Shown here: positions 29,868 through 31,782 of the stretch, piece after piece
Layout of the letters: every line of letters begins with the position of its first letter
Numbering within the stretch: position 1 is the stretch's first letter
NCBI GenBank assembly: GCA_030609365.1
Contig: JAUWCJ010000012.1
Location: 1 to 35,364, forward strand
Length of the DNA stretch: 35,364 nucleotides
Source of the DNA: Candidatus Eiseniibacteriota bacterium
Lineage (GTDB): Bacteria; Joyebacterota; Joyebacteria; Joyebacterales; Joyebacteraceae
Reading direction: 5' to 3'
The notes under the pieces: generated by a model
Database searches by the model: none
What the model was told of the DNA's origin: nothing
What the model saw: only the letters and a program-made list of their open reading frames with translations
Position numbers and translations under genes: made by a program

Positions 29868-30026
29868 TCAGGGTTGGAACAGGGCCTTTATTGCAGCCCA
29901 GGAGAGTCTGTCGACGGGTACGTACTGGAGGACCCGGCGCCAGGACACGGGGTCGGGCGCGCCGACGCAGGCAGCCGCGGCAAGCGCCACGGCGAGGCAG
30001 GTCATGCACACCAGCAGGACTCTCAT
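29868..30026 (-). CDS. Tiny (52-residue) exported protein with W..IKAL tail
   Basis: A short open frame: ATG at 30026, stop at 29868. The first 23 or so residues form a signal peptide (RVLLVCMTCLAVALAAAAC), followed by about 12 residues (PDPVSWRRVLQY) and then the tail VPVDRLSWAAIKALFQP. The tail matches the ends of the two larger secreted proteins upstream (PVE..[ST]W..IKAL[FY]R), which makes this more than a chance frame. A weak ribosome site (GAGGG) lies before the ATG. It could be a decayed family member reduced to signal plus tail, or a genuine small peptide. Confidence 0.65.
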   Translation of the reverse strand: MRVLLVCMTCLAVALAAAACVGAPDPVSWRRVLQYVPVDRLSWAAIKALFQP

Positions 30027-30046
30027 GTCTGCCCTCGCTCGCAGAG

Positions 30047-30079
30047 AGAGGGGCTCCGCCTCTTGGACGGAGCCCCTCT
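30047..30079 (-). terminator. 12 bp hairpin after the first large secreted-protein gene
   Basis: Perfect 12 bp arms (30047-30058 with 30068-30079) around a 9-base loop, 50 bases after the stop at 30129. It lies 20 bases before the tiny gene's ATG. The core GGGGCTCCG...CGGAGCCCC resembles the hairpin at 31037-31063 after the paralogue. There is no U-run. Confidence 0.65.
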
Positions 30080-30128
30080 GCAGCGCTCGCTCGTGCTTGT
30101 TCCGTTCCCAAACGGGAGCTCAGGCAGG

Positions 30129-30797
30129 CTACCTGAACAACGCCTTGATGATAGCCCACGTGGAGCCCTCGACGGGCGTGCTATCGCCCGGGAATGTCTG
30201 AGTGGAGTGGGCCGGGGAAGTCACGCAGACGTAGTCACACCAGTAGTCCGTGTGATCCGGGTCGTTCGTCGACGGCGTGCTGTAGAGACGTGCCTCGATC
30301 ACCAGCGCGTTGCCGTTTCCACCTGCGAACACCCACGTGTAGCTGACGAGATCCCAACCCGTGCCGGCTGTGTAGTCGGAGTTGCCGCCGGCCGAGCCGA
30401 GGTACGTGGTAACGTCGATGGAGTCCGAGTAGTGACCCCAGATACGCCACGACGGGCTGGCGCCCGGCGTGATGTCGTAGCCGTAGAAGCTGGCCGTCAC
30501 CTCGTCTCCGTCGTTCAGATTGGTGACCCAGGCGATGAACGCCTGTGGCGTCCCGGAGTGTGGGTCCTCAGCGACGTGCAGGTAATACTCGCCGTCGTAG
30601 GCGCCCGCGCAGGTGTAGTCCGGGAGTGTTGAGCCCTGCGAGCCCATCTGAGGACCCGACACGTTCGCCTCGCCGACCAGGTTGCCGTACGAACCGAGAA
30701 TCGTGCCGCCATCCTCCCAGCTGTAGTAGCTGCCGACCTGGGCATGCGCAGGAACGGCAAGCAGAGTGAGAGCCGCAATCAGAATCAGGTACCTCAT
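30129..30797 (-). CDS. Secreted WENGG/GTPQAF-type beta protein with C-terminal W..IKALFR tail (copy 1)
   Basis: A 222-residue exported protein. ATG 30797 follows AAGGAGG. The signal peptide is RYLILIAALTLLAVPAHA. The mature part looks like a beta-sandwich: YYSWEDGGTILGSYGN, YYLHVAEDPHSGTPQAFIAW, GDEVTASFYGYDITP, GTGWDLVSYTW and IEARLYS. It resembles carbohydrate-binding-like modules, but I cannot name a family. The tail is STPVEGSTWAIIKALFR. The protein is closely similar along its length to the gene at 31105-31782, so the two are tandem duplicates. TTGACT at 30946-30951 could be a -35 box but has no good -10 partner. Confidence 0.85.
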   Translation of the reverse strand: MRYLILIAALTLLAVPAHAQVGSYYSWEDGGTILGSYGNLVGEANVSGPQMGSQGSTLPDYTCAGAYDGEYYLHVAEDPHSGTPQAFIAWVTNLNDGDEVTASFYGYDITPGASPSWRIWGHYSDSIDVTTYLGSAGGNSDYTAGTGWDLVSYTWVFAGGNGNALVIEARLYSTPSTNDPDHTDYWCDYVCVTSPAHSTQTFPGDSTPVEGSTWAIIKALFR

Positions 30798-31104
30798 GGA
30801 GGCCTCCTTGGTCAGGTCCGCCGCCAGTAATTCCTCACCTCCGCGCGCGGGGGCCCTGACTCGTGCCGCTCTCGGGGCCGCGATTCGACCGAGCGCTCCG
30901 CGCACTCACACCACACAACCGCAGGTTGTCACGTGGGTGAGCGACAGTCAAGAGAAATCACGGCGCCCGTCCGATTTCTCACCTCCGCGCCCCCCTCTCT
31001 GTCCCTGGCCGAGTCGAGAGCAGGCACGAAGCGGAAGGGGCCCCGCCGATAAGGCGGAGCCCCCTGCAACTGCTTCCCTACCTGGTGCCAGACTCAGCGT
31101 CAGA
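30798..31104. other. Spacer between the two secreted-protein paralogues
   Basis: About 307 bases without a gene. It holds the terminator hairpin of the upstream paralogue (31037-31063), a 6 bp palindrome ACAACC-GCA-GGTTGT (30915-30929), and a TTGACT box (30946-30951, - strand). The stretch GCACTCACACCACACAACC (30902-30920) resembles bases 31826-31841 in front of the other paralogue. Confidence 0.6.
31037..31063 (-). terminator. 11 bp hairpin after the second large secreted-protein gene
   Basis: Arms 31037-31047 and 31053-31063 around a 5-base loop. In the - strand transcript the single odd position is a U-G wobble, so all 11 pairs form. On the + strand it would be a C-A mismatch, which fits transcription from the - strand. 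It resembles the hairpin at 30047-30079. No U-run is seen. Confidence 0.65.
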
Positions 31105-31782
31105 CTACCTGTAGAGAGCCTTGATGTTCGTCCAGCTCGACTCCTCCACCGGCGACACGAGCTCGGGGAAATGGATCGTCGCGTGATCGGGAGCCGTCAC
31201 CGTGATGTCATCGATCCAGTAGTCCGTGCGGTCGGGGTCCGATGTCGCCGGATCGCTGTAGAGACGCGCCTGGATCACGAGACCGCCGTGAGCGCCGCCG
31301 TCGGCGAAGAAGGTCCATGTGTGCGAGACCAGATCCCAGCCCGTTCCGGCCGTATAGGGATCGGCGCCGCCAGCGCTACCGTGGTAGCTGTTGACGTCTC
31401 CACCGGTCGCCGTGTAGCTGCCCCAGATCCTCAACGAGGGGCTGATGTCCGGCGTGATGTCGTATCCGTAAAACATCGCATCGACGATGTCGCCTTCCAG
31501 AAGACCGTCGACCCAGCAGACGAATGCCTGCGGCGTGCCGGTGTGCGGGTCCTCGGCCACGTGCAGGTAGTACGTGCCGTCAACTGCGCCGGGGCACGTG
31601 TAGTCAGGGAGCAGCGAGCCCTGCGAACCGGTCTGCGGGCCGGAGACGTTCGACGCGTCGACGAGGTTGCTGCCGTAGAAACCGAGGATGGTGCCGCCGT
31701 TCTCCCAGCTGTAGTTCAGCGTCTGCTGCGCAAACGCAGGCACCGCGATCAGAACGAGAGCGATAACAAACAGCTTCTTCAT
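31105..31782 (-). CDS. Secreted WENGG/GTPQAF-type beta protein with C-terminal W..IKALYR tail (copy 2)
   Basis: A 225-residue exported protein. ATG 31782 follows GGAGG with 5-base spacing. The signal peptide is KKLFVIALVLIAVPAFA. The mature part (LNYSWENGGTILGFYGSN, YYLHVAEDPHTGTPQAFVCW, DAMFYGYDITPDISPSLRIW, GTGWDLVSHTWTF, IDDITVTAP) is predicted all-beta. The end is SPVEESSWTNIKALYR. The sequence matches copy 1 throughout, including the tail. Acidic Asp clusters (DPATSDPDRTDYW) could bind calcium, but that is a guess. A strong promoter and a long leader lie upstream. Function unknown; probably surface or extracellular. Confidence 0.86.
   Translation of the reverse strand: MKKLFVIALVLIAVPAFAQQTLNYSWENGGTILGFYGSNLVDASNVSGPQTGSQGSLLPDYTCPGAVDGTYYLHVAEDPHTGTPQAFVCWVDGLLEGDIVDAMFYGYDITPDISPSLRIWGSYTATGGDVNSYHGSAGGADPYTAGTGWDLVSHTWTFFADGGAHGGLVIQARLYSDPATSDPDRTDYWIDDITVTAPDHATIHFPELVSPVEESSWTNIKALYR

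Follow-up and report, generated by a model that had tools for sequence, protein, structure and literature searches.

A conserved C-terminal tail of about 16 residues on unrelated exported proteins of Eisenbacteria: a candidate sorting signal

What a bacterium displays on its surface is defined by C-terminal sorting signals. In type IX secretion (T9SS), PorU cuts off type A C-terminal domains (CTDs) and replaces them with a surface anchor. Type A CTDs depend critically on their C-terminal residues and on a lysine close to the end (PMC11285876, PMC10994853). T9SS CTDs can be as short as 40-51 residues, as in Prevotella intermedia, and for Hbp35 the last 22 residues are enough (PMC11969387). If the reading proposed here is true, a tag of ~16 residues with neither a transmembrane helix nor a folded domain would be unusually short for an envelope that includes an outer membrane. 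A limited full-text literature search returned no description of IKAMFR, WGSIKAMF or similar strings and nothing joining Eisenbacteria with secretion-system sorting, although such a search does not prove absence.

The window analysed here, a 35,364-nucleotide stretch of Candidatus Eiseniibacteriota DNA, encodes three neighbouring exported proteins whose exact C-termini carry the tail, just where the initial annotation had placed it (Table 1). Proteins 1 and 2 share 65% identity in pairwise comparison and are paralogous, so a tail common to that pair alone carries little weight. The third gene, as had also been noted, shares nothing with them beyond the tail; the mature part of its product barely exceeds the tail, the rest being signal peptide. 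Within that mature part lie two tail-like stretches, PVSWRRVLQY and PVDRLSWAAIKALFQP. The earlier statement that cysteine is lacking holds for the tail itself, but not for this ORF, which has a lipobox-type Cys at the end of its signal peptide. No informative Pfam match was obtained for any of the three proteins and no NCBIfam match for proteins 1 and 2, and the AF2 model of protein 1 is of low confidence (pLDDT 41.8).

Table 1. Tail-bearing ORFs of the window and the positions of their tails.
Feature	Coordinates	Strand	Description
Exported protein 1	31105..31782	-	225 aa; signal peptide MKKLFVIALVLIAVPAFAQ; beta-rich domain
Protein 1 C-terminal tail, PVEESSWTNIKALYR-stop	31105..31152	-	exact C-terminus
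Exported protein 2	30129..30797	-	222 aa; paralogue of protein 1
Protein 2 C-terminal tail, PVEGSTWAIIKALFR-stop	30129..30176	-	exact C-terminus
Third ORF, lipoprotein-like	29868..30026	-	52 aa; lipobox LAAAAC
Third ORF C-terminal tail, PVDRLSWAAIKALFQP-stop	29868..29918	-	exact C-terminus

Tails were counted across the window's genome (2.78 Mb, 206 contigs) by DNA pattern searches and by reading of the fetched stretches. A locus of the MAG CSMAG_2124 (Candidatus Eisenbacteria) matches this genome with 99.4% identity across 1846 bases. A strict pattern, TGGNNNNNNATHAARGC (W..IKA), gave 35 matches in the 2.78 Mb, compared with none for the reversed-pattern control. On translation, 34 of the 35 lie 9-11 codons from a stop, five of the 35 having been placed via looser-pattern coordinates and fetched stretches; the remaining match is internal to a long frame and looks like chance. 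The looser pattern yielded 65 distinct tailed ORFs, fetched and read, with the ~16-residue consensus [TS]PVE[DE]x[ST]WGx[IV]K[AS][LM][YF]R-stop. The distance from tryptophan to the end is exactly 9 residues in 54/65, and several tails carry 1-4 extra residues. Several positions that formed no part of the search pattern are strongly conserved among the 65, namely Pro at -6 (49), Val at -5 (53), Glu at -4 (46), Ser/Thr at -1 (61), Gly at +1 (52) and Arg at +8 relative to the tryptophan (51). A lysine near the C-terminus, present in 65/65, is part of the search pattern. The tails thus have the lysine near the C-terminus and the basic C-terminal residues that type A CTDs are expected to show.

The proteins that carry the tail are otherwise diverse. 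With the last 25 residues cut off, 63 bodies fell into 29 unrelated clusters at E<=1e-4. One sequence per cluster sufficed to recover the same consensus, conservation being confined to ~16 positions, and upstream of about position -7 nothing is strongly common across the 29 clusters. A strict signal-peptide heuristic scored 43/56 closed tailed ORFs against 39/228 background ORFs from the same and related loci, as expected of Sec-exported T9SS substrates; a laxer heuristic was positive for 50/56 tailed ORFs, yet also for 41/101 background ORFs. None of 62 tailed proteins has a transmembrane-like segment, scored as a 19-residue window with KD>1.6, in its last 60 residues. Carrier domains recognised by Pfam and NCBIfam include right-handed beta helix (10), choice-of-anchor J (3), choice-of-anchor X, FG-GAP, Cleaved_Adhesin, LTD and GEVED, which are typical neighbours of C-terminal anchoring signals; a thioester domain was recognised as well. 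Among the Pfam and NCBIfam matches, no model covers the tail and none is a C-terminal tag model; TIGR04183 is absent from the NCBIfam families matched at E<=0.01 by the 63 tailed proteins scanned. Overall, the proposal that the tail would recur at the exact C-terminus of many unrelated signal-peptide proteins is borne out by 65 ORFs in 29 clusters, with 43 of 56 closed ORFs positive in the strict signal-peptide heuristic, and these carriers support the suggestion of an export or attachment signal.

One carrier family behaves less regularly. We call these lipoproteins NTF2-like, a label that is a reading of the sequence with no database match behind it. They occur in tandem arrays, end in WExxxWxD...WGxIKAxYR and adjoin a PorV-family gene (L342:6946-8121, L209); further arrays lie at L334, L337, L328-L330, L335 and L338. 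One PorV orthologue adjoins tail-bearing lipoprotein genes in about 8/15 loci, the adjacency occurring in G000, G001, G004, G006, G008, G009, G010 and G014 and being absent from genus g3. Some copies of the family are fused or extended such that a tail-like motif becomes internal (GWGGIKYCF inside a 391-aa fused ORF), and the C-terminal rule is therefore not absolute in this family. The initial annotation had named confinement to a single beta-domain family, or internal rather than terminal tails, as grounds for abandoning the idea; neither holds, with the exception of the few internal or extended copies of this one lipoprotein family.

Beyond the window's genome, the tail is found throughout the sampled phylum. 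All 20 Eisenbacteria genomes, which represent one family and eight genera, carry 21-70 tail matches each (control, 0), extending the C-terminal recurrence past a single genome, and tails read from loci of other genomes were C-terminal in 36/36. Outside the phylum, GTDB genomes were scanned with WG[S..]IKAMFR-stop, giving at least 120 loci; since AMFR was fixed and the loci are a minimum count, the taxonomic breadth is a lower bound. Most of these loci encode one exported FN3-like protein of ~135 aa with the tail RxTWGSIKAMFR (L084-L203, for example L111:5033-5437), and the others are a few Eisenbacteria-like proteins and contig-end fragments. The single-copy FN3-like protein occurs at least in KSB1, Calditrichota, Neomarinimicrobiota, Delongbacteria, Ignavibacteria and further MAGs labelled as Bacteroidota. 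Of the 39 genomes in G026's phylum, 30 contain exactly one tail match and none contains two. The label "lineage-specific" given to the tail at the outset consequently fits its expanded use, which is found in Eisenbacteria only, but not the tail itself, which is present in single copy across several FCB phyla.

The tail of the FN3-like protein is more constant than its domain. Among 24 diverse examples the domain has few invariant columns, whereas TWGSIKAMFR is identical in 24/24, a constancy to which the scan pattern contributed. The invariance of nine tail residues among 109 single-copy genes is partly a product of the scan pattern; the Thr before the Trp, which the scan did not select, is present in 104/109, and a freer pattern applied to G026's phylum (third residue open, L/M, Y/F) still returned WGSIKA[MLI]FR in every match. 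Synonymous codons vary freely within the invariant tail of the 109 genes, from which it follows that selection acts on the peptide; a DNA- or RNA-level element is ruled out by the same variation. The fold is FN3/Ig-like and offers no functional hint. Genes found downstream include, in Ignavibacteria, those for SpoIID-domain lipoproteins and Maf and, in Delongbacteria, that for RuvB. As these and other neighbours vary from one lineage to the next, a conserved neighbour serving as processing enzyme was rejected as a candidate. A protein encoded upstream in L111 and L127 may be DUF4835/PorD-like and is given no weight as evidence here. The single-copy protein may have a local relative in an Eisenbacteria FN3-like protein with the degenerate tail VREVSWGCVEAQYR (L271, G000:C190:2020-2382). 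An apparent double tail in L162:4109-4365 proved to be an assembly artefact, a duplicated stretch spanning a run of N.

Tail-bearing lineages encode the type IX translocon SprA together with PorV-type shuttles, as hosts of T9SS substrates do. SprA has clear matches in 18/20 Eisenbacteria genomes, the exceptions being G015 (no match; 57% complete) and G019 (a weak partial match only; 78% complete), and each Eisenbacteria genome has 9-19 PorV-family matches and 43-107 type A CTD matches. SprA also has clear matches in G020 and G026, both of which carry the single-copy protein, and matches in 39/39 genomes of G026's phylum, 35 of them above the cut-off. Tail-bearing lineages are nested within T9SS-positive lineages, and because both tail and T9SS belong to the FCB group this co-occurrence is largely phylogenetic. 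A separate genome, G037, has 14 PorV-family matches, three type A CTD matches and no SprA match, and thus apparently holds PorV-like barrels without T9SS.

A further connection comes from what the carrier domains end in. Within the one family of genomes, choice-of-anchor J proteins end in the tail at seven loci (L303, L290, L291, L306, L298, L300, L311) and in a type A CTD at at least eight (L295-L297, L307, L309, L310, L299, L312). Likewise, five proteins of G026 have a type A CTD directly after the FN3-like domain, and the single-copy protein has the tail after the same domain. Read from the sequences, tail and T9SS CTD are thus shown to interchange, choice-of-anchor J proteins and the FN3-like domain ending in either. 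Because it occupies the site at which the T9SS signal lies in other proteins of these bacteria, the tail looks like an undescribed address label by which proteins are moved to, or fixed at, the cell surface.

We infer from these sequence comparisons that the tail directs sorting. Some kind of sorting or docking tag is highly probable, and the odds that T9SS is what reads it appear about even. Our preferred reading, to which we assign a probability of roughly 0.5, is that T9SS reads the tail, through a PorV-like shuttle, as a C-terminal sorting signal that is new and unusually short. Under this reading, tailed proteins would cross the inner membrane by Sec, a step that is well supported. The tail would then serve in the periplasm as a targeting label that needs no transmembrane helix, a step supported by its strict C-terminal place, its 29 unrelated carriers and its swaps with the T9SS CTD. 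The reader would be type IX secretion machinery, most simply one of the many PorV-family shuttles of these genomes together with SprA; the shuttle would bind the tail, with its tryptophan and basic residues, perhaps in the form of a short helix, and the protein would be passed to the cell surface. Other FCB phyla would use this signal for just one small, dedicated FN3-like protein in each genome, and Eisenbacteria for dozens of proteins.

Several observations count against T9SS as the reader. With 43-107 ordinary type A CTDs per genome, T9SS already has a signal in these bacteria. CTD motifs B and D are missing from the tail, which AF2 models as a helix, at low confidence (pLDDT 63-68), not as a strand. 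The SprA-positive genomes G022, G025 and G028 have no tail match. Finally, some tailed proteins are lipoproteins and so anchored already.

The strongest competing explanation, though an unlikely one, is a docking tag whose free C-terminus holds the exported protein to a periplasmic or outer-membrane receptor, for instance a PorV-like barrel, a PDZ-type protein or a surface scaffold, with no T9SS transport involved. The fixed spacing of 9 residues from tryptophan to the end in 54/65 tails would suit a receptor that reads a free C-terminus, the single-copy FN3 protein, whose tail is invariant in many phyla, resembles a constant member of some complex, and some carriers are lipoproteins; however, the swaps with the T9SS CTD, seen in two domain families and two phyla, suggest an equivalent sorting role. 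Still less probable is a processing signal recognised by a new, dedicated protease (sortase-like or tail-specific) that does not belong to T9SS, in a pairing like PEP-CTERM and exosortase without the transmembrane helix. Known tag/sortase pairs do match the choice-of-anchor carriers, the many-to-one use of the tag and the single dedicated target elsewhere, but those tags have the transmembrane-like segment near the C-terminus that is seen in 0/62 tailed proteins; no candidate enzyme was found, and the neighbours of the single-copy gene vary by lineage.

Direct adhesion to membrane or LPS by a short amphipathic basic helix is very improbable: the W/I/L/Y pattern with K and R and the low-confidence AF2 helix would suit it, but the helical hydrophobic moment is unremarkable (73rd-82nd percentile of shuffles) and a generic membrane helix would not call for residues as specific as the near-invariant W, G, K, A and terminal R. 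We give hardly any credence to a SecM-type translation-arrest sequence that monitors export, an idea prompted by the small single-copy exported protein and its invariant C-terminal peptide in several phyla; dozens of unrelated carriers in Eisenbacteria, variable downstream genes with no conserved secretion gene among them, and the 1-4 extra residues on several tails all speak against it, and the tail is not confined to one regulatory ORF that precedes a secretion gene. Ordinary paralogy, with the tail belonging to one beta-domain family, was suggested by window proteins 1 and 2 and is refuted by the 29 unrelated body clusters.

A bolder reading can be put forward tentatively, at a little under even odds: the tail could represent a new outer-membrane signal class of ~16 residues with its own receptor, running parallel to the type A CTD pathway. 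Several FCB phyla would have retained it on a single dedicated, secreted FN3-like protein, and Eisenbacteria would have made it a general address label on dozens of proteins. Such a tag would allow many exported proteins of an uncultured phylum, now hypothetical, to be annotated and would offer a minimal peptide for asking how T9SS-type shuttles recognise their cargo. The single-copy FN3-like protein with its invariant tail in several phyla is a separate puzzle.

Among described systems, the type A CTD (TIGR04183 / PF18962) resembles the tail in being a C-terminal signal on Sec-exported proteins without a transmembrane helix, in having a conserved lysine close to the end and a basic last residue, and in occupying the same place in two domain families. 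In contrast to the 70-100-residue beta-sandwich with motifs B, D and E, the tail comprises ~16 conserved residues across 29 clusters, with no Ig-like beta-sandwich, no motifs B and D, a conserved Trp and no TIGR04183 match. The short CTDs of P. intermedia, shrunken T9SS signals, likewise occur beside long ones in one genome, but they retain a three-stranded sheet as well as motifs B, D and E, none of which the tail has (PMC11969387). The type B CTD (TIGR04131) and its PorP/SprF shuttles provide a precedent for a second signal class with a different shuttle and for adjacent substrate and shuttle genes (PMC12618676), although type B CTDs span 150-235 residues and no TIGR04131 match is listed for the tailed proteins. 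PEP-CTERM/exosortase, GlyGly-CTERM/rhombosortase (PMC3237569) and LPXTG/sortase share with the tail a many-to-one C-terminal tag, choice-of-anchor proteins and sometimes one dedicated target per genome. These tags combine a transmembrane helix with a basic end, whereas a helix followed by a basic cluster is found in 0/62 tailed proteins, which also lack an LPXTG-like motif with a transmembrane helix. The tail is a member of none of the families tested, and its place would be among the C-terminal sorting signals.
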